A stretch of 54,800 nt of DNA from Deltaproteobacteria bacterium (GTDB taxonomy: Bacteria; Myxococcota_A; Polyangia; Polyangiales; JADJMO01). A program made the position numbers and the translations under genes. Below, in pieces: positions 22,222-32,009 of this stretch; the first letter of the stretch is position 1, and each line of letters opens with the position of its first letter. A model generated the notes under the pieces. It made no database searches. It had not been told where the DNA came from and saw only the letters and a list, made by a program, of their open reading frames with translations. The stretch spans positions 1 to 54,800 of the forward strand of contig JANYDK010000091.1 of the NCBI GenBank assembly GCA_025363655.1, read 5' to 3'.

Positions 22222-24210
22222 ATGCGCCGGATGAAGTCACCCGCGGAGGAGACGGCGGTCGATCCCCTGCTCGTCGAGGCTGGGCTCGCGCGTGGAGCCC
22301 TGCGCGCGACGCCGTCGGTCAGCTTCATCATCGCGCCGCTCTACGTGGTCTTCGCCTTGGCGCACCCCTTCATGCTCCCTGCGGCCCAAGCGCGGGTGAT
22401 GACGCCGACCGCGGCCGCGAGCGCGCTCGTCCTCGTCGGCCTCGGCGGGTACATGCGACGTGGCGGGCTCCGGCTCGCGCGCTCCGCCTACGGACTCGAG
22501 AGCATCATCGCCATCGTCGTATGGATCAACGTCACGCTCCACGTCGCGGTCTCCCGCGAGCTGCACCAGGCGACCAACTACGCGCTCCTCGCCATTGGAA
22601 TCGGCGCGCTGCTCCATTCGATCCGCTGGTATTCCGCGCTGCAGCTGCTCACCGTCGCTTCGTTCGTCCTCGCGCTCCGCACCTCGACACCCTCGCCGCT
22701 GGCGACGCATTTCACCTTCTTGATGGTCTCGGCGCTCAGCATGTCGATCGCCATCTTCGTCGTGCGCCGGCTCGCCAACGTCCGCATCGAGACCCTCCGG
22801 TTGCGCGAGGCCGAGCAGCATCGGGCCCTGGAGCACCTCTCGGCGCGGCTCCAGGCGGTGCTCGACGCGATGCGCGAGGGCATCCTCGTCGTCGATCCCG
22901 ATCGTCAGGTGCGCGGGACCATCTCGCGCGAGACCGCGCGCATCCTCGGCGACGCCGCGCGCGAAGAGGTCGACGTGGTCGAGCTGCTCTACCCGGACGA
23001 TCCGAACGGAGTCGAGCGCGCGGCCTTCGAGAGCTGGCTCGATGCCGTCTTCGCCGAGTCGTCGTCGGCGTGGGAAGAGCTGGAGGGGCTCGCACCGCGC
23101 CGAGCGATTCTCCGCGCGGGCAAGCCCGATGCGCGACCAATCGCCTTGGAATTCCGACCGATGGTCGAGTCGGGGCGGGTCGCTCACGTCGTCGTGCGCG
23201 TTCGCGACGAGTCCGACAAGCAGGCTCTCGAGCGCGCGATGCGTGCGCAGCAGGAGTCGTTCGCGCTCCGTCTCGCGGCGATGCAGCGCCTCGTCGCGGG
23301 CGGAGGCCAGGCGTTCGTCGCCTTCCTCCGCGCTGCTCGCGGAAGGCTCGGTGATGCACGATCGCTCCTGGCGGGGGCGCCGTCGCGCTCGGATCTCGAC
23401 GAAGCGCTCGAACACGTTCACTCGCTCAAGGGCGAGGCGGACGCGTTCGAGCTTCCGGCGCTGCGTGAGGCTGCGCACGCGCTCGAAGACGCGATCGTCG
23501 CCTCGCGGACCGGTGACGCCTCGCTCCCGACTGCCCGCGCCCGAGCCGACGTGGTCGGCCAGGCCCTCGCCGAGGCCCAAGCGCTCTTGGTGCAGGCTTC
23601 GCCGCTCGGCGACGCCGTGCTCACGCAGACGACGGTGCAGGGCGCCGACGTCGAGCGGCTCTATGCGCTCGCCGGGCAGCGGAAAGACGAGCTCGGCGCG
23701 CTGGCTCGGAGCATGGCGGCGCGTCCTTTCGGCGAGCTCGTCGGCCTCCTTCCCTCACGCATCGCGCGCTGGGCGACGAGCCTCGGCAAGCGCGCCAGCG
23801 TCGTCGTCGAGGGGCGCTCGGTGCTCGTCCCGCCCTCGCTCGCCGACGTGCTCGGGAGCGTGCTCGCCCACCTCGCGAGGAACGCAGTCGTCCACGGCCT
23901 CGAGCTCCCAGATGTGCGTGTCGACGCCGCCAAGCTGGCCCATGGCCGTATCGAGCTCCACTGCGAATTGGCCGAGACCGGCGTACGCATCACCTTCTCC
24001 GACGATGGCAGAGGCGTGCCCGACGCGCTCCGCGATTCGATTTTCGCCGCCGGAACGAGCACGCATGCCGAGGTCGACACGCTCGCGGGTCGCGGGGTGG
24101 GACTGTCGGCGGCTCGCGCGGAGCTCGGCCGCGTCGGTCATCGCCTCCGCCTGGTCGACACCACTCCAGGCGCATCCTTCGTCATCGACGCGATCGACGC
24201 GATAGGATGA
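22222..24210 (+). CDS. Membrane sensor kinase of CheA type (Hpt plus HATPase, no CheW domain)
   Basis: A 662-residue protein. Residues about 35-185 hold about five transmembrane helices. A PAS-like domain follows (about 205-330, ILVVDPDRQVRG). Residues about 355-450 are an Hpt-like domain with phosphoacceptor His400 in HSLKGEAD. The ATPase domain (about 505-660) has LARNAVVHGLE (N box, Asn554), DDGRGVP (594-600) and GRGVGLSAAR (623-632), the CheA-style ATP lid. A CheW-like P5 domain is missing, so it is not a classical chemotaxis kinase. The stop overlaps the start of the receiver gene by four bases (ATGA), so the cognate pair is translated together. It belongs with the sensory genes to its right and lies convergent to the PYP-like gene. 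Confidence 0.87.
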   Translation: MRRMKSPAEETAVDPLLVEAGLARGALRATPSVSFIIAPLYVVFALAHPFMLPAAQARVMTPTAAASALVLVGLGGYMRRGGLRLARSAYGLESIIAIVVWINVTLHVAVSRELHQATNYALLAIGIGALLHSIRWYSALQLLTVASFVLALRTSTPSPLATHFTFLMVSALSMSIAIFVVRRLANVRIETLRLREAEQHRALEHLSARLQAVLDAMREGILVVDPDRQVRGTISRETARILGDAAREEVDVVELLYPDDPNGVERAAFESWLDAVFAESSSAWEELEGLAPRRAILRAGKPDARPIALEFRPMVESGRVAHVVVRVRDESDKQALERAMRAQQESFALRLAAMQRLVAGGGQAFVAFLRAARGRLGDARSLLAGAPSRSDLDEALEHVHSLKGEADAFELPALREAAHALEDAIVASRTGDASLPTARARADVVGQALAEAQALLVQASPLGDAVLTQTTVQGADVERLYALAGQRKDELGALARSMAARPFGELVGLLPSRIARWATSLGKRASVVVEGRSVLVPPSLADVLGSVLAHLARNAVVHGLELPDVRVDAAKLAHGRIELHCELAETGVRITFSDDGRGVPDALRDSIFAAGTSTHAEVDTLAGRGVGLSAARAELGRVGHRLRLVDTTPGASFVIDAIDAIG

Positions 24211-24623
24211 GCCGAGTGCCCGGCCACGTCCTCGTCATCGACGATCAAGAGCACGTGCTGGTGCGTGTGAGCAACGCGCTGCGCAGCGTCGGCGTCGAGG
24301 TCGTCGTCACCTCCCAAACGGTGGGCGCGGCGCGCTTTCTCCGCGGCTGCGAGCTTGTGCTCCTCGACTATCACATGCCCGGTCTCGACGGCGCCGCGGT
24401 GCTCGCGTCGCTCCGCGAGGCGGCCGCGAAGATGGACGATCGACCCCAATTCTACCTTTATACGAGCGATTCGAACGCCGCGAAGGACTGGCAGGCGGCC
24501 GGCTTCGACGGCATCCTCGCCAACAAAGGCGACGACGAGCACATGGTCTTGCAGGTGCAGGCAGCGCTCCGCGGGAGACGTCTACGTCAGGCGCGGCGGT
24601 CGAAGGCGCCTTTCGAGACCTGA
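24207..24623 (+). CDS. Single-domain response regulator
   Basis: A 138-residue receiver: acidic pair IDDQE (Asp12-Asp13), phosphoacceptor Asp54 in LVLLDYHMPGLDG, Ser/Thr near 87 (YLYTSDSN) and Lys107 (ILANKGDD). No output domain, as in CheY. It overlaps the CheA-like kinase gene (ATGA) and is its likely substrate. It ends 33 bp from the convergent PYP-like gene. Confidence 0.92.
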   Translation: MSRVPGHVLVIDDQEHVLVRVSNALRSVGVEVVVTSQTVGAARFLRGCELVLLDYHMPGLDGAAVLASLREAAAKMDDRPQFYLYTSDSNAAKDWQAAGFDGILANKGDDEHMVLQVQAALRGRRLRQARRSKAPFET

Positions 24624-24655: not shown

Positions 24656-25642
24656 TCACCATGCCTCGAGACCGAGCCTCTCGGCGATGGCCCGTGGCTC
24701 GACACCCAATCTTCGCCACTCGCGTGCATCCGCGGCGCGTGGGCTCGAGCTCGCGACGAGGCGCAACATCGCGCCGGCCCGGCCGAACACCACGACCTCG
24801 ACCGCTCGACCGGTGAGGGCGGTCATGGCCGGTTGGAGAACTCGCTCGTAGAGCCGCTCGGCGAGGTCGATGGGAAGGTCGACACCTCGCAGCGTCATCC
24901 CGACCACGTCGTCCGCCTCCTCGACGAACTCGAGCTCGAGGCGGCCGAGCCCCTGGGCAGCCAGCGTGTCGTCGACCAGTGCGGCACCGAGCAGCCGCGG
25001 GAGCCGCGACAGCGGTTGCGAGTGATGGCGGCCCGCGAACCTCTCGAGCGCATCGGCAAGGAGGCGACCCCAGGCTTCAGCGCCACGATCGACGGCGTCG
25101 GTCAACGATGGATCCTTCCCGACGAGATCGAACGTCGTCGCCCAGAAGACGCGAGGCGGCGCCAAGGCGGAACCGAGCCCTCCGCGCGCCTGCCCGTCGT
25201 CGAGGTCGACGACGATGGGATCGACCGGGTCGAATGGGCGTCCGTCGTCCTTCAGCTCGCGGCGCGTGACGATGACGAGGACGCGCGACTGACCGGGCAG
25301 GTGGGCGAAGCTGACGACGACGTCCTGCGCGCCGTGATGGAAGTGGAAGCGAAAGCCGAAGCGCGCCACCTCGTCCGCGCGGGCCTCGGCGACGAATGCA
25401 CGGAAGCGCCCCTCGAATGCAGCGACGCGCGTGCACGGGGCGACCTCGTGGAACCAATTGCGCCCGAGGACCTCGTGCGGGGCTCGGCGCGAGAGCCGCG
25501 ACTCGTAGTCGTTGTAGAGGTGAACGTAACCTTCGTGGTCGAAGATCATGAGCCCGTAGGGAAGTGCGTCGACCTCTTCGCGGGTGAGCTGCGCAATGCG
25601 CTCGACGTCGAGGATTGCTTCGTCGTGCGTCGCCTGTTCCAT
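24656..25642 (-). CDS. Photoactive yellow protein-like PAS protein with C-terminal unknown domain (PYP-A)
   Basis: A 328-residue soluble protein. Residues about 10-135 match photoactive yellow protein closely: LPYGLMIFDHEGYVHLYNDYE, then NWFHEVAPCTRVAAFEGRF. Aligned to Halorhodospira PYP, Tyr42, Glu46, Thr50, Arg52 and the chromophore-binding Cys69 correspond to Tyr43, Glu47, Ser51, Arg53 and Cys70, so all five pocket positions are kept or conservatively replaced. PYP binds p-coumaric acid through this Cys and absorbs blue light. Residues about 165-328 are an unrecognised domain with alpha/beta stretches (LYERVLQPAMTALTGRAVEVVVF), faintly like V4R-type small-molecule-binding domains. It is 14 bp downstream of the receiver-like/DUF4388 gene, in the same orientation, so probably in one operon. 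Chromophore-making enzymes are not in the window. Confidence 0.83.
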   Translation of the reverse strand: MEQATHDEAILDVERIAQLTREEVDALPYGLMIFDHEGYVHLYNDYESRLSRRAPHEVLGRNWFHEVAPCTRVAAFEGRFRAFVAEARADEVARFGFRFHFHHGAQDVVVSFAHLPGQSRVLVIVTRRELKDDGRPFDPVDPIVVDLDDGQARGGLGSALAPPRVFWATTFDLVGKDPSLTDAVDRGAEAWGRLLADALERFAGRHHSQPLSRLPRLLGAALVDDTLAAQGLGRLELEFVEEADDVVGMTLRGVDLPIDLAERLYERVLQPAMTALTGRAVEVVVFGRAGAMLRLVASSSPRAADAREWRRLGVEPRAIAERLGLEAW

Positions 25643-25656
25643 GCTGGATTCCCTCC

Positions 25657-26790
25657 TCACCGACTGCTTGCGGCCGCGCTCGTCGTGCCGCGCGCTGCGG
25701 CGTCGATCGCCGGGCGAAATCCGAGCTGGTCGACCAGCCGGCCGAGGCCACCGAGGACGTCGTCGATGCGGCAGCGACCGAACTGGCCTGGACGCATCGC
25801 CTCGAGGCGCTCGAGGGCAATGGCGACCCAGGACGCGATGGGCGCGCCTCCTTCGAGGGAGAGCGTTCGTAGGCCCTCGACGAGGACGTTCCCGTTCGGT
25901 GCGACGCGAAAGTGGCCGAGCTGCGGCGCGCCGACCTGCGCAGCCACCCGGGCGAGCTCGACCTCTCGGAGGACGACGGCCTCGGGCAGCCAACGGCGAC
26001 CGCGGGCGATGACGGCGTTGATCATCGCGACCGCCAACGCCACGCGCACGCCGACCGCGCTGGCATCGAGGGCGCTCCGGTCGTCGAGCGTCGGCGCGGG
26101 CGGTGGGGGTTGCGCGAGACTCGGCTTGACCGCAGCGATGATGCGCGCGGCGGTCTCGGCATCGAGCGCCCCGAGCTCGTCGGTGTCGTCGACGGTACGA
26201 AACTCCACGCGGAAGCGGCCGATCTGCAGCGCGCCGAGGGCCTCGAGCGCGCCCCGACCTGTCAGGGCGTCGAGCGAACAGCTCGTCAGCAGCCCGTTAC
26301 GGATACGCAGCTCGCCGCGCTGTTCGCCTGCGCGAACGCGTACCACACAGTCTCGCCGTGCCCGCACCAGCGTGTCGACGAGGAGTGAAATCGACAGATC
26401 GGCGATGCTGCCGTCGAGCTGATGAACCATCGCCGCCGCCGTTTGAGCGTCGAGGATCATGCGTCGAACCGCAGCGACCAGTTCGGCGTCGGGCACGCCG
26501 AGCGTGATGGTCTTGCGTGCGCCATGGCCGCGAGCGCTCCGCTCGTCGATCGAGGGACCGACGAGCGCGAGGGGAACGAAGCGGAGATCTTCTTCGCGCC
26601 GCGCATGGTGGACGAGGCTGATGGGAAGGCCAGGGGCCATGGTCACGACCACCAGGCCGTCGATCGGCCTTCGTCTCGGGGAGGCGAGCCGCTCGGTTAG
26701 ATCTTCGACCCGGAATCGTCCGGCCGCGAGCGCCCGCCGGACGCGCGCGACTCCCTCCGAGACATCACCAGCGATCGTCACCGAAAACAT
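25657..26790 (-). CDS. Degenerate receiver plus DUF4388 (PATAN) protein
   Basis: A 377-residue soluble protein; GGAGG seven bases before the ATG. Residues 1-110 have the alternating beta/alpha pattern of a receiver (FSVTIAGD, DGLVVVTMAPG, VPLALVG, KTITLGVPDAELVAAVRRMI), but the phosphoacceptor position in strand 3 reads Val-Thr, so it is not phosphorylated. Residues about 120-200 are a DUF4388/PATAN domain (QLDGSIADLSISLLVDTLVRARRDCVVRV, then LRIRNGLLTSCSLDALTGRGALEAL). The C-terminus (about 215-377) is a helical region, possibly a second binding domain. PATAN domains couple receivers to partners in cyanobacterial phototaxis and myxobacterial signalling. It is the first gene of the minus arm that includes PYP-A. 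Confidence 0.78.
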   Translation of the reverse strand: MFSVTIAGDVSEGVARVRRALAAGRFRVEDLTERLASPRRRPIDGLVVVTMAPGLPISLVHHARREEDLRFVPLALVGPSIDERSARGHGARKTITLGVPDAELVAAVRRMILDAQTAAAMVHQLDGSIADLSISLLVDTLVRARRDCVVRVRAGEQRGELRIRNGLLTSCSLDALTGRGALEALGALQIGRFRVEFRTVDDTDELGALDAETAARIIAAVKPSLAQPPPPAPTLDDRSALDASAVGVRVALAVAMINAVIARGRRWLPEAVVLREVELARVAAQVGAPQLGHFRVAPNGNVLVEGLRTLSLEGGAPIASWVAIALERLEAMRPGQFGRCRIDDVLGGLGRLVDQLGFRPAIDAAARGTTSAAASSR

Positions 26791-26835
26791 GTCGTTCCTC
26801 CGATGAGCGAGAGCGCGCACTGGTTACGACAGACA

Positions 26836-26854
26836 TTGTACATACTATGTACAA
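26836..26854. promoter_or_regulatory. Perfect palindromic operator candidate between divergent PYP arms
   Basis: TTGTACAT-ACT-ATGTACAA is a perfect 8-bp inverted repeat with a 3-bp spacer, 46 bp upstream of the PATAN gene start and about 200 bp upstream of the roadblock gene. It is strongly AT-rich for this genome. TGTACA contains the T-n2-ACA element seen in CarH/LitR (B12-photoreceptor) operators, but other dimeric regulators bind such sites too. A second palindrome, TACATGTA, lies at 26923-26930. Confidence 0.6.
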
Positions 26855-27054
26855 CAACGACCGATGTTTCGGCGCGAGAGCTTGACCCGCGCTATCCGGC
26901 GCTCGCGTGATACGCGAGAAAATACATGTAGAACGCATGTGGCTCGCCCTCGGTGGCGGTGGGCGACGCTCTTACGAATCTACGATCAACCTTGAACAAC
27001 ACCGAAACGTTCCGGCGTCGCGTCACATCCATCGAGCCACTTGGAGGTCGTCCG

Positions 27055-27450
27055 ATGAATGTTCGTTTCGATCAAGAAATGTCCTCTCCTGATCCGATCG
27101 CGCGCGTGCTCGCAGAGATCATCTCCGGCAACGGCGAGGTGAGCGGGGCGTTCGTCGTCGACGACGATGGCGTCGTCTCGGGGTCCGAAGGCGCCAACGA
27201 GGAGGCTCTGGCTGCGGCCGTGGCGATGGTGGTGCCCTTGCGCGCCTTGCTCGACCGCGCGTCCGCCGAGCTCGGCGCAGGTCAATTCACAGTGACGACG
27301 CTCGAGGGAGATCGCGGCGTGTTGGCGATCGCAGACGTCGACGGTGCGCGCACGGTGGTGGTGCTCGGAGCCGCCGGAGCCGCGCCCGGAGCCCTCCGCG
27401 CCGACGCCTGTTTCGTCGCGGACCGACTTCGCTTCGCGGGTGCCCAGTGA
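27055..27450 (+). CDS. Roadblock/LC7-family protein
   Basis: A 131-residue protein with GGAGG eight bases before the ATG. The sequence fits the Roadblock/LC7 (MglB-like) fold: a first helix (PIARVLAEIISGNGEV), a strand VSGAFVVDDDGVVSGS, a helix rich in Ala/Leu (LAAAVAMVVPLRALLDRAS), and strands FTVTTLEGDRGVLAIADV and ARTVVVLGA. Roadblock proteins dimerise and act as regulators of small GTPases such as MglA. There is no GTPase gene in the window. First gene of the plus arm; its stop overlaps the next start (GTGA). Confidence 0.75.
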   Translation: MNVRFDQEMSSPDPIARVLAEIISGNGEVSGAFVVDDDGVVSGSEGANEEALAAAVAMVVPLRALLDRASAELGAGQFTVTTLEGDRGVLAIADVDGARTVVVLGAAGAAPGALRADACFVADRLRFAGAQ

Positions 27451-28472
27451 TCGAGCTGGCCTTTCTCGCGGGCGGCGCCGTCCTCGGCGGTGGCGTCGCG
27501 CACGTCGCCCACGTCCTCTCGCTCCGCTCGTCGGGCAAGAAGCTGAACGCGGCTCTCGTCGAGCACCGGCACGCACTCGCCGACGCTCGTCGACGTGGCG
27601 AAGACGCGACGGCGGCTCTGCGCTCGGAGCTCGTTCGTATGCGCGCGGTCGTTCCCAGCCTCGGCGCGGCCCCCATCGGCGTCGGCGAGGGCAGGGCCAC
27701 TCCCGTCGAGCTCGCGCGCATCGTCCAGCGCGTGCGCGGATTCTCCACGGCCGAGTCGGTCGTCATCGGCGGCAGCGACGGGCTGCCACGTACGCGCATC
27801 GAGCATCGCGACGAAGAGGCCCTCGCCACGCTCGCCACGCTCGCTGGCTCCTTCGCGCCCGCCACCGCGATCGAATTGGAGACGAGCGACGCGCGACACT
27901 TCGCCCTACGCGCACTTCCGCGCTGGACCCGTGACGCCTGGCTGGCCGCCGGCTCGCTCAGCCGCCCTCCATCTCCCGCGGTCCTCGACGCGGCCATCGC
28001 GTTCGCTGCGTTGCTCCGTGAGCCCGACTCGCCGCCAGCGCCGGTCGACGTCCTCGGCGGGGAGCTCGGGCAGCTCGGCCCCCAGAGCGCATTTCCGAAC
28101 GCGCGCGAGCTCGAGCACGCGTGTGCGACCACCGGCGCGGCGGCGATGCTCCTCGTCGACGGCGTCGAACCGATGTCGGCGACGGGCAGGGCGATCGCCT
28201 CGCTCGGCCGCATGACGCCCCTCGTCGCCCGCATGGCCGAGCTTCGCCAGAGCTCGGCGCGTCGATTGCGCGCCCGCGACGTGCTCCGCCTCGACGTGCA
28301 CCTTCCGGGCGGTGACTGCCTGACCTACGCGCCGCTCGCACCCGAGAGCGAGCGCTGCGTACTCGCCGTCACCCGCGCCGCAAAAATCAGCGACGCCGCG
28401 ATCGCCCGCCTCGCCGGGCGCCTGCGGCTCACCGAAGGCAACGCGTCTGCGATGGACAGGAGGATCGCATGA
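27447..28472 (+). CDS. Membrane-anchored protein with roadblock-like domains
   Basis: A 341-residue protein starting with a GTG that overlaps the preceding stop. Residues about 1-24 form an uncleaved membrane anchor (LAFLAGGAVLGGGVAHVAHVL). Residues about 30-65 look like a coiled coil rich in Arg/Glu/Ala. Two segments (about 90-160 and 225-325) have the roadblock-like strand order, for example TAESVVIGGSDGLPRTRIE and AAAMLLVDGVEPMSATGRAIAS, though both are divergent and the calls are tentative. It would display the roadblock fold at the inner membrane and could recruit the preceding roadblock protein and PYP-B. It overlaps PYP-B by ATGA. Confidence 0.68.
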   Translation: MIELAFLAGGAVLGGGVAHVAHVLSLRSSGKKLNAALVEHRHALADARRRGEDATAALRSELVRMRAVVPSLGAAPIGVGEGRATPVELARIVQRVRGFSTAESVVIGGSDGLPRTRIEHRDEEALATLATLAGSFAPATAIELETSDARHFALRALPRWTRDAWLAAGSLSRPPSPAVLDAAIAFAALLREPDSPPAPVDVLGGELGQLGPQSAFPNARELEHACATTGAAAMLLVDGVEPMSATGRAIASLGRMTPLVARMAELRQSSARRLRARDVLRLDVHLPGGDCLTYAPLAPESERCVLAVTRAAKISDAAIARLAGRLRLTEGNASAMDRRIA

Positions 28473-29137
28473 ACACGCCCACTCGAGGAAGGACGCTGCC
28501 GCCAGGAACCAACGACGCGATCCGTCAGCTCGTGCAGGAGCGCGACGCGCTGACCGAGCAGCTCGCGCAGCTGCGCCTCGAGCTCGCGGAGCTCCGGACC
28601 ACGCTTCTCCAACTGCAGCAGACGCCCCGCGCGGCTCCATCCGCTACATCTGGTCGCTTCGAGACTCCGCCCTTGCCAGCCATGCATCCACTCGATCCAC
28701 CCATGTCGGGTCTCTTCGCCACGGCAGGGTCGGGGGTCTCGGCGCCGCAGCAGGGCATCGACTTCGGCGCCGTCGCCAAGCTCTCACCGGCGGCGCTCGA
28801 TGCGCTTCCCTACGGCCTCATCACGCTCGACGCTGCCGGGCGGGTGCTCCACTACAACGACACCGAGGCGAGGCTGGTCGGTCTCCCCAAAGAGCGCGTC
28901 CTCGGACGCTCCTTCTTCGGTGAGGTCGCGCCTTGCACGCGCGTGCGCGAGTTCCAGGGACGCTTCGAGGAGCTGGTTCGCGATCCCGTGCGGGTCCGCG
29001 TGCAGACGTTCGACTTCGTCTTCCGCTTTCAACACGCCGAGCATCACGTCTCCATCACCATCACGCCGGCGCGCGTCCGAGGCCAATTCCACGTCGCGCT
29101 CGTGCGACGGGCCATTCTCGCGCGCTCGGGAGCATGA
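28469..29137 (+). CDS. Photoactive yellow protein-like protein with N-terminal coiled coil (PYP-B)
   Basis: A 222-residue protein. Residues about 20-52 form a coiled coil (QERDALTEQLAQLRLELAEL), a Pro-rich linker follows, and the last 120 residues are a PYP-type PAS domain: LPYGLITLDAAGRVLHYNDTE, then FFGEVAPCTRVREFQGRF. Tyr129, Glu133 and Cys156 align with PYP Tyr42, Glu46 and Cys69. Thr50 and Arg52 are replaced by Val137 and Leu139, so pocket chemistry should differ from PYP-A. The final strands (HVSITITPARVRGQFHVALVRR) complete the PAS sheet. It is the last gene of three overlapping plus-strand genes, whose start overlaps the previous stop (ATGA). The coiled coil suggests dimerisation or docking to the membrane roadblock protein. 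Confidence 0.83.
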   Translation: MNTPTRGRTLPPGTNDAIRQLVQERDALTEQLAQLRLELAELRTTLLQLQQTPRAAPSATSGRFETPPLPAMHPLDPPMSGLFATAGSGVSAPQQGIDFGAVAKLSPAALDALPYGLITLDAAGRVLHYNDTEARLVGLPKERVLGRSFFGEVAPCTRVREFQGRFEELVRDPVRVRVQTFDFVFRFQHAEHHVSITITPARVRGQFHVALVRRAILARSGA

Positions 29138-29212: not shown

Positions 29213-30214
29213 TCAGAGTCCGGCGGGAATCAGCACCTTGTCGATGACGTGAATGACGCCGTTGCTATTGGGGATATCGGTGAGGACGACGTTGGCGACG
29301 GTCGTCGTCGAATCACCGATCGTGACCTTGCCGCCCGCGAGGGTGAGCTTCAGCTTGTCGCCCTCGACGGTGGCCGCATCGCCCGTTTTCACGTCCTTTC
29401 CGTAGGCGACGGCGGGGAGGAGGTGATAGGTGAGCACCTTCGTCAGCTTGGCCTTGTCGGCGAGAATGGCGTTGAACGCAGTGTCACCGAGCGCAGCCTT
29501 CAAATCGGCGAAGGCCTTGTCGGTCGGCGCGAAGACGGTGAACGTGCCGGGCTTGCTCAGCGTGTCGACGAGACCGGCGGCCTTCACCGCAGTGACGAGC
29601 GTGGTGAACTTCACCGTGCCGTCGTCGTAACCGACCGCGGTGTCGACGATGGTCGGCAGGAGCACGCCGTCGATGACGTGAATCACCCCGTTGGACGCCG
29701 CGATGTCGGCCGTCGTGACGTTGACGCCGCCGTTGATCACCACCTTGCCGCCAGAGCCGTCGACCGAGAGCTTGGCGCCGGAGACCGTGTCGACAGGCGA
29801 GGCCGGCTTGCCGAGGATGTCCTTGGCTGCCACGGCGCCCGCGTGCACGTGGTACTCGAGGATGAACGCGAGCTCGGTCTTGTAGGGCGCCGACGTCAGC
29901 TCGGTGAGCAAGAAGTCGGGGACGCTCTTCTTGAACGCGTCGTCGCTCGGCGCGAAGACGGTGAAGGGGCCGGCGCCGCGGAGCGTCGACTCGAGCCCCG
30001 CCGCCTGCACCGCCGTGACGAGCGTTTTGAAGGTCCCGGCCCCGACGGCAGTGTCGACGATGTCCTTCGTCGTCGGGCTGGTCTCGCTGCCGGTGTCGGT
30101 CTTCGGGCCGCCTGTGTCGGCGGTCTCCGCCGGGCTGTCCGACGACGCGCTGCAACCGAACGAGGCGAGACCGACGACGACGATCGAGGCGAAAGAAAAG
30201 AGAGAACGACGCAT
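29213..30214 (-). CDS. Lipoprotein with two FAS1 (fasciclin) domains
   Basis: A 333-residue lipoprotein (lipobox SFGC, Cys about 21) with a Thr/Asp/Pro linker and two tandem FAS1 domains (about 50-190 and 195-333). Each has DIVDTAVGAGTFKTLVTAVQAAGL or its counterpart, the H1 motif FTVFAPTDKAF (FTVFAPSDDAF in domain 1) and the H2 motif NGVIHVIDKVLIP. FAS1 domains mediate adhesion and are common on bacterial surfaces. CGGAGG lies before the start. Convergent with PYP-B and upstream-adjacent to the photolyase; its promoter region contains an inverted repeat. Confidence 0.93.
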   Translation of the reverse strand: MRRSLFSFASIVVVGLASFGCSASSDSPAETADTGGPKTDTGSETSPTTKDIVDTAVGAGTFKTLVTAVQAAGLESTLRGAGPFTVFAPSDDAFKKSVPDFLLTELTSAPYKTELAFILEYHVHAGAVAAKDILGKPASPVDTVSGAKLSVDGSGGKVVINGGVNVTTADIAASNGVIHVIDGVLLPTIVDTAVGYDDGTVKFTTLVTAVKAAGLVDTLSKPGTFTVFAPTDKAFADLKAALGDTAFNAILADKAKLTKVLTYHLLPAVAYGKDVKTGDAATVEGDKLKLTLAGGKVTIGDSTTTVANVVLTDIPNSNGVIHVIDKVLIPAGL

Positions 30215-30389: not shown

Positions 30390-32009
30390 TCACTTCTTCA
30401 CGCGAATCAAGCTGAGTTGTCGAGAGGCCGGCGGATGTAGCTCCTCGCCTCTTCCGAGCGTCGCTCGCACGTGCTCGAACTCGAGTGCGTCCAGCCGGCG
30501 TTCGTCCGCCGACCTCTTGGCGACGGCCGCCAGCGGAACGCGCATCCGCATGTTGGCGTGGAGTGCACGTTCATGGCGCGCCAAGAAAGCCCAGTAGAGG
30601 CGAGTCAGCGGGCAATTGGACTTCGGATCGAACCGGCAGCTGTCGCAGAAGTCACTCATTCGATTCACGTACGCGGCGCCCGCCACGTAGGGCTTGGTGA
30701 TCATCGTGTCGGCGGCGCCGTACGTCCCCATGCCGAGCACGTTCGGCTCGACGACCCAGTCGAAGGCATCGATGTACGCGATCCAAAACCAGTCGGTCAG
30801 CTCGCGTGGCGAGACGTCGAGGAGCTGCGCGAGGTTGGACAAGATCATGAGTCGAGTGATGTGGTGACTCCAGCCTTCGCGCCACACGTCGTCGACGACG
30901 CGATCGAGGCAGGCGAGCCCGCTCGGCTTGCCCCAGTACGCAGGCGGCAAGGCGTGGGTGGCGCCGAGCGCGGAAGGGTCGGCGTTGGGTGTTGGCGGGA
31001 GACCAGGAATCGCTCGAAAGCCGTCGGTGGCGCGATGGACGTGCCGCACGAATTCCCTCCAGCCGAGGATTTGGCGGACGAATCCCTCTCGGCTCGACAG
31101 CGGCAAAGGGAGCGACGTCGCGCGGGCGAGCACTTCGCTCGGCAAGAGCCGGTGCAAATGGAGGAGGGGCGAAATCCGGGTGTGGAAGAGCCCAGACGAC
31201 TCGACGCTCATCGCGTCCTCGAAAGGCCCGAACGTCGGCAGGCAGCTCTCCTCTGCCCACGCCCAGGCGCGACGTGCATCTTCGTGCGTCGCCGGGAGAG
31301 TCTCCAACTCGAGCCGACCGGGATGCTTGCCGAAGCGCGTGGTCACCAGCTCGCCGACCTCTCTCGTGATTTCGTCTGGAGAAAAGCGTGGGGGCGATGG
31401 CGGTTCGGGGTCTCCTCGCCACGGCTGTCGGTTGTCGGCGTCGTGACTCATGCGACCTCCGACCGGCGAGCTGCCTCCTTTTCCTTCCATCAAGATGCCG
31501 GTGCGGCGACGCACGGCGGCGTAGAATTTGTCCATCCTCCAGGGTGGACGTCCCTCGACGCCGGCGTGCGCGAAGTCTTCGTCCGTCGTCAGCCAACCCT
31601 CGTGGGGAAGCACCTCGATGGCTGCCGAATCGACGAGCGGCCAGAGGTCTTCACGCAGCTCGCGCTCGGCCGCTTCCATCATCCGGAGAGGGCCGAGCTC
31701 GGGCGTCAGGGGCGCGAGCGCGGCAGCATAATCTCCGCGCGACACCACATGACGTACCGCGACGCCGCGTCGGGCCTGCTCGAGGGCGAAGTGACGAAGG
31801 TTCGCCAGAACTAGGGCGAGCTTCTGCTGATGATAGGGCCTTCGCGCAGCCTTGTCGGGGCACTCGACGACGACGATACCGAGCTTGCCGACAGGCTCAC
31901 GCGAGAGCGGGCCGATCGCGGAAGTGAGCTGATCGTAGGGAACGAAGATCCAAGTTCGGTCCCGCTCGTCGACCGCATGACTCGCGAGCATTCGGCGGAA
32001 GGCAGACAC
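30390..32009 (-). CDS. Fe-S bacterial photolyase/cryptochrome (FeS-BCP, PhrB-like)
   Basis: A 539-residue enzyme of the deoxyribodipyrimidine photolyase-related class, which repairs (6-4) photoproducts using FAD and light. Signs: the N-terminal alpha/beta domain (IFVPYDQLTSAIG, HQQKLALVLANLRHFA), the helical FAD domain with SHHITRLMILSNLAQL, and four cluster-type Cys: Cys367, Cys455, Cys458 and Cys466. The 88-residue spacing between the first two equals that in PhrB, whose four Cys bind a 4Fe-4S cluster. Length fits the family (about 510 aa) with a slightly extended N-terminus; the start may be the Met at 31991. It is a light-dependent repair enzyme next to the PYP-type locus, which supports a light-exposed lifestyle. 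Transcribed toward the FAS1 gene, probably with its own promoter. Confidence 0.92.
   Translation of the reverse strand: MSAFRRMLASHAVDERDRTWIFVPYDQLTSAIGPLSREPVGKLGIVVVECPDKAARRPYHQQKLALVLANLRHFALEQARRGVAVRHVVSRGDYAAALAPLTPELGPLRMMEAAERELREDLWPLVDSAAIEVLPHEGWLTTDEDFAHAGVEGRPPWRMDKFYAAVRRRTGILMEGKGGSSPVGGRMSHDADNRQPWRGDPEPPSPPRFSPDEITREVGELVTTRFGKHPGRLELETLPATHEDARRAWAWAEESCLPTFGPFEDAMSVESSGLFHTRISPLLHLHRLLPSEVLARATSLPLPLSSREGFVRQILGWREFVRHVHRATDGFRAIPGLPPTPNADPSALGATHALPPAYWGKPSGLACLDRVVDDVWREGWSHHITRLMILSNLAQLLDVSPRELTDWFWIAYIDAFDWVVEPNVLGMGTYGAADTMITKPYVAGAAYVNRMSDFCDSCRFDPKSNCPLTRLYWAFLARHERALHANMRMRVPLAAVAKRSADERRLDALEFEHVRATLGRGEELHPPASRQLSLIRVKK

Follow-up and report, generated by a model that had tools for sequence, protein, structure and literature searches.

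Two back-to-back PYP-family gene arms, one with a PATAN partner and one with roadblock partners, in a myxobacterial genome

The window analyzed here is a whole contig of 54.8 kb from a genome of 9.0 Mb, probably of the order Polyangiales. Five genes lie in it in two divergent arms (Table 1), where an earlier note on this DNA had placed them, and the observation made in that note was confirmed as a whole. In the minus arm, a DUF4388/PATAN gene is followed after a 14 bp gap by the PYP-A gene. The plus arm runs from a small roadblock gene through a membrane protein gene to the PYP-B gene, and two 4-nt overlaps join the three genes, as had been reported. The start codon of the small roadblock gene is uncertain, and an in-frame GTG is also found at 26953. 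A divergent region of 0.26 kb, which includes a perfect palindrome, separates the two arms, and neither arm encodes a kinase.

Table 1. Features of the divergent PYP locus, with positions in the window.
Feature	Position	Strand	Basis or remark
PYP-A	24656-25642	-	TIGR02373 and fold match to PYP 1mzu
DUF4388/PATAN protein	25657-26790	-	DUF4388 in 10/10 family members; adjoins PYP gene in relatives
Perfect 19-bp palindrome, TTGTACATA-C-TATGTACAA	26836-26854		Divergent promoter region; candidate operator
Small roadblock/LC7 protein	27055-27450	+	PF03259 above cut-off
Membrane-anchored tandem roadblock protein (P3)	27447-28472	+	AlphaFold model, two predicted roadblock-fold domains
PYP-B	28469-29137	+	TIGR02373 and PDB 1mzu match

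Both PAS domains had been assigned to the PYP family, and profile, structure and residue comparisons agreed with this assignment. The TIGR02373 profile matched PYP-A with 79.7 bits (E = 1.9e-22) and PYP-B with 88.1 bits (E = 4.7e-25), both under the equivalog cut-off of 143.05 bits. As 62 of 184 genomes of the order contained a match to this profile and only one of the 184 a match above the cut-off, the cut-off suits the order poorly. The best PDB matches of both proteins were PYPs, with the PYP domain of Ppr at the top (PDB code: 1mzu; 9.1e-20 for PYP-B); the model of PYP-A matched this structure at 1.7 Å with 39% identity. The pocket triad consists of Y43, E47, and C70 in PYP-A and of Y129, E133, and C156 in PYP-B. 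The equivalent Tyr/Phe42, Glu46, and Cys69 (H. halophila numbering) were kept in 74 of 74 strong TIGR02373 domains of the order (E of 1e-14 or better, bar a few truncated or frameshifted copies), a set that was itself gathered with the PYP profile and leaves aside the broken copy in L042. As a control, 12 weak PAS hits of the order were inspected, and the triad was absent in all of them. Cys69 was also kept in 129 of 129 domains of a wider set, which was partly chosen by patterns including the pocket residues, so that the count of 74 is the less biased figure.

In the main text of Xing et al. (2022; PMC9664959), Cys69, the site for thioester-bound p-coumaric acid, defines the PYP family, Tyr42 and Glu46 form the hydrogen-bonding pair, and the Myxococcota are given as the likely origin of the family. 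The criteria for membership are Cys69 together with Tyr42, Glu46, or both; Cys69, Tyr, and Glu are all present in both proteins. By this definition, the sequences place PYP-A and PYP-B in the PYP family, and both are probably blue-light sensors. When 130 PYP domains, some of them chosen by patterns with pocket residues, were placed in a tree, PYP-A belonged to a V4R-linked clade (support 0.935) and PYP-B to a roadblock-linked clade (support 0.928).

A possible supply of chromophore was sought in the genome. No tyrosine ammonia-lyase (TAL) was found in it, and its sole aromatic lyase scored as HutH (658.7 bits, cut-off 539). Together with scores far under the PYP equivalog cut-off, this would suit an alternative in which the PYP-like domains have lost light sensing via p-coumaric acid and the conserved Cys binds another ligand or senses redox. 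However, the missing TAL is weak evidence, because just 5% of published pyp operons include TAL, as given in the main text of Dohmen (2025; PMC12826048). Furthermore, Glu46 and Cys69 are invariant, Tyr42 is swapped only for Phe, a residue that functional PYPs are also known to have there, and a photolyase-type gene stands 1.2 kb from the locus. We regard the loss of light sensing as quite unlikely. The photolyase-type gene (30390-32009, minus strand), a light-linked gene past PYP-B, is related to deoxyribodipyrimidine photolyase (PF04244, 1.3e-43). PYP-B itself is adjoined by the gene of a fasciclin-domain protein (29213-30214, minus strand); a fasciclin-like protein is also encoded beside the PYP of G181 (L072 7387-8808), the sole PYP over the TIGR02373 cut-off.

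In the minus arm, the DUF4388 match of the PATAN protein was weak (0.003, below the cut-off). The domain was found in 10 of 10 members of its family, with 5.8e-9 as the best value. When the family profile was run against the 184 genomes of the order, 10 proteins were recovered at E of about 1e-130 or better, and the next DUF4388 protein followed at 6e-10. The gene directly downstream of each of the 10 encodes a PYP, in seven cases with a 4-nt overlap, and the PYPs linked to these proteins form one subclade of the tree (support 0.969). The carriers include Sorangium cellulosum So0157-2, So ce26, and So0008-312, Polyangium fumosum, two more Polyangium strains, and one Byssovorax MAG. A degenerate receiver had also been proposed in the N-terminus of the PATAN protein. 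No support was found for this candidate: the N-terminal region gave no Pfam match and, as a profile, no PDB match at E ≤ 10, and it is absent from the Polyangium members.

PYP-A has a feature that the earlier description did not include. Its PYP domain (residues ~15-130) is followed by a C-terminal domain (residues ~160-325), which by profile comparison is probably a diverged V4R-like domain. V4R (PF02830) was matched in 11 of 20 PYP-A relatives (best 3.8e-15), with no direct match in the PYP-A of the window, and the C-termini of the PATAN-class PYPs aligned with the kinase-class V4R domains at an hhalign probability of 92%. PYP-V4R fusions are already known from the main text of PMC12826048.

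A second type of pair was found for this receptor. Twelve genomes of the order and some additional MAGs have a Ser/Thr kinase gene with a PYP-V4R gene directly downstream of it, the two mostly overlapping by 4 nt. Of these kinases, 11 were aligned; their HRD, DFG, and lysine motifs are intact, and they are apparently active. In the tree, the PATAN-linked subclade stands beside kinase-linked and solitary PYP-V4R proteins, and the Corallococcus and Archangium PYP-V4R genes that were inspected have neither a PATAN nor a kinase partner. The two types of pair are alike in that homologous PYP-V4R genes are placed directly downstream of a partner gene; they differ in the partner, a PATAN protein in the one type and, in the other, a kinase whose HRD and DFG motifs are intact. 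As a sister lineage carries the kinase in the place of PATAN, the partners have been swapped. The earlier proposal of scaffolds rather than kinases therefore fits this locus but cannot be extended to the PYP-V4R lineage as a whole. A kinase gene also occurs nearby in the window: an Hpt-HATPase kinase, which matches PAS weakly and probably has membrane segments, is encoded together with a single receiver at 22222-24623 (plus strand), convergent with PYP-A. These two genes were left out of the proposed system because the kinase had homologues near other PYPs in only two cases (L077, L033).

In the plus arm, the small protein matched Robl_LC7 (PF03259) at 5.3e-7 with 29.7 bits (cut-off 23) and an archaeal roadblock protein in the PDB at 1.3e-4, in line with its earlier annotation. 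The membrane protein P3 (341 aa) gave no Pfam match. Its AlphaFold model (pLDDT 79.5) has an N-terminal hydrophobic segment, a long helix, and two domains (residues 86-189 and 219-340). Domain 2 of the model matched M. xanthus MglB (PDB code: 6hjm; Z 10.0, 2.5 Å, 115 residues), and Rag/Ragulator domains were matched similarly; both domains were assigned to the roadblock fold, with its elements in the order alpha-beta-beta-alpha-beta-beta-beta-alpha, domain 1 by topology only. At the sequence level, roadblock matches of P3 were weak, including the match to the small roadblock protein of the same arm (hhalign probability 17% or less). The model predicts two roadblock-fold domains in P3, consistent with the membrane-anchored roadblock-like protein that had been described. 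PYP-B is composed of an N-terminal coiled-coil-like segment, a linker, and a C-terminal PYP domain, a layout shared by its homologues. Coiled-coil-like N-termini occur in PYP-B homologues, and a hydrophobic N-terminus is present in 8 of 8 homologues of P3.

Strong homologues of P3 were found in nine genomes of the order, in all nine beside a PYP-B gene. The copy in G110 is truncated, and the full-length homologues also adjoin a roadblock gene. In G009 the order is rearranged to PYP, roadblock, short gene, and membrane protein, yet the parts stay together. One more homologue, from another class in a 379-genome sample of the phylum, again lies with a roadblock gene and a PYP gene, and two MAGs, one from the Kofleriaceae and the other labelled Acidobacteria, have similar loci. 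Genes in the relatives were called with a simple codon-usage caller, and many relatives are MAGs, whose genome labels can be wrong. Because each arm recurs across genomes, chance is excluded for the arms.

These observations led us to consider what the locus may do. We see an even chance that it comprises two back-to-back PYP-family light modules, in each of which the PYP is made with dedicated signal-carrying proteins. For the chromophore, binding, targets, and light response of such modules, we infer the following scheme. In the minus arm, PYP-A would bind the PATAN protein, and light would alter how the latter is held. By analogy with PixD-PixE, the PATAN protein would then be freed or presented to a target, for which the type IV pilus extension motor is the likeliest candidate; the V4R domain of PYP-A may add a small-molecule input. 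In the plus arm, P3 and the small roadblock protein would form a membrane scaffold, Ragulator-like or MglB-like in layout, on which PYP-B would dock, perhaps via coiled coils, and light would alter what the scaffold recruits. The genome does encode PilB (over the cut-off). The locus itself contains no pilus or polarity gene, which counts against the proposed mechanism, as do the missing TAL, the PYP scores under the TIGR02373 cut-off, the weak DUF4388 match of the window copy, and the assignment of P3 to roadblock by model rather than by sequence. A full photoreceptor system free of kinases and nucleotide second messengers, with PYP-B remodelling a Ragulator-like scaffold and PYP-A releasing PATAN so that both act jointly on motility polarity or pilus motors, is in our judgement unlikely; if true, it would be the first light-controlled roadblock system.

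The roadblock arm could alternatively be a light-controlled GAP, GEF, or sink for MglA that steers gliding or pilus polarity. The resemblance of domain 2 of P3 to the MglB fold of M. xanthus and the presence of an mglBA pair elsewhere in the genome (L124) are consistent with this reading. However, the conserved arms were seen to contain no GTPase gene, and the MglB of this genome could not be aligned with the small roadblock protein; many roadblock proteins, moreover, bind no GTPase. We hold a role of this arm in MglA control to be somewhat unlikely, and a link of the locus to a polarity GTPase to be possible.

We then asked how closely the two modules are related to one another. The divergent five-gene locus is found only in this genome (G000) among the 184 of the order, and the locus consists of two separable modules that are usually apart in other genomes. 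What is conserved is the gene group of each arm. The arms might accordingly be unrelated light modules, neighbours by chance here and each working alone as in the relatives; that PYP-A and PYP-B come from separate clades agrees with this, and we place its probability just short of even. Several observations point the other way. A PYP-V4R arm occurs in 7 of 9 genomes with the roadblock arm and in 13 of 37 other PYP-bearing genomes (Fisher p = 0.026, uncorrected for ancestry and with G140, which has a kinase-PYP-V4R locus, left out). Other loci (L055, L047, and L182) also pair two PYP units. Finally, the arms share one promoter region with a unique palindrome. A palindrome of 19 bp is not expected by chance, and none was found in shuffled sequence. 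It was absent from the loci of the other genomes. No sigma-70 promoters were found, a search that is uninformative for a GC-rich myxobacterium. Taken together, the PYP family, the conserved arms, and the lack of kinases in them are the parts of the earlier interpretation that stood, while the receiver found no support and a single conserved system gave way to two modules.

Other PYP loci with further arrangements were recorded. L182 (1089-5369), in the MAG labelled Acidobacteria, contains V4R, PYP, roadblock, tandem roadblock, and second PYP genes in one run and is a second case of two PYPs together with scaffold genes. L047 (7740-10528) looks like a mixed locus in decay: it holds a PYP-kinase, a PYP-B, a tandem roadblock gene that is truncated, and a fragment of V4R. 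In L055 (5782-9204) and L042 (8332-10738), a PYP-histidine kinase gene beside a BLUF gene is divergent from a single-domain PYP gene with a PAS-GGDEF protein gene; the PYP-kinase frame is broken in G012 (L042). In L081 (7364-8914), a PYP domain is fused to a dual-specificity-type protein phosphatase domain, and the layout of L082 is similar.

PYP is among the best-studied photoreceptors. How it passes on its signal is described as an important gap in the main text of Dohmen (2025; PMC12826048). PYP partners reported in the main texts of PMC9664959 and PMC12826048 are HK, MCP, GGDEF/EAL, PHY, V4R, REC, and BLUF; neither PATAN nor roadblock proteins nor stand-alone Ser/Thr kinases are mentioned as partners in these main texts, and the supplementary neighbour tables may list them. 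Full texts were searched for bacterial photoreceptors that carry a roadblock domain; only a general Myxococcus review was returned, most subscription papers being outside the scope of this search. The corresponding search for PYP with V4R and a kinase returned only PMC12826048, and a literature search for roadblock, DUF4388, and PATAN together gave unrelated text matches only. As far as the readable literature extends, the locus joins a known receptor family to output partners absent from it, in keeping with the earlier statement that no described system combines these parts. PATAN, roadblock scaffold, and Ser/Thr kinase are three recurrent types of PYP partner in the supposed phylum of origin of PYP, and these recurring pairings are candidates for its missing signalling partners. 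Sequenced strains of Sorangium cellulosum and Polyangium carry the PATAN pair, so that the question becomes directly testable. Should light control the roadblock scaffold or a PATAN switch, optogenetics would also gain a new part.

Among systems that have been tested, PixD-PixE of Synechocystis is the nearest parallel; in it, the BLUF protein PixD holds the PATAN protein PixE, and blue light is thought to free PixE for the pilus motor PilB1, reversing movement (PMC7690835). Both there and in the minus arm, a blue-light receptor is paired with a PATAN protein; the receptor here is a predicted PYP rather than a BLUF protein, and PixE has a CheY-like receiver, whereas none was detected here. With the PYP photoreceptors of H. 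halophila and R. centenum (PYP and Ppr), the two receptors share the PAS fold and the Tyr42/Glu46/Cys69 pocket, and the PYP-V4R layout has been reported. MglA-MglB and Ragulator/LAMTOR share the roadblock fold with the plus arm, and Ragulator is membrane-tethered, like the scaffold predicted here. Unlike both of these systems, the plus arm has no GTPase gene, carries its two predicted roadblock-fold domains in one membrane-anchored chain, and is coupled to a photoreceptor gene.
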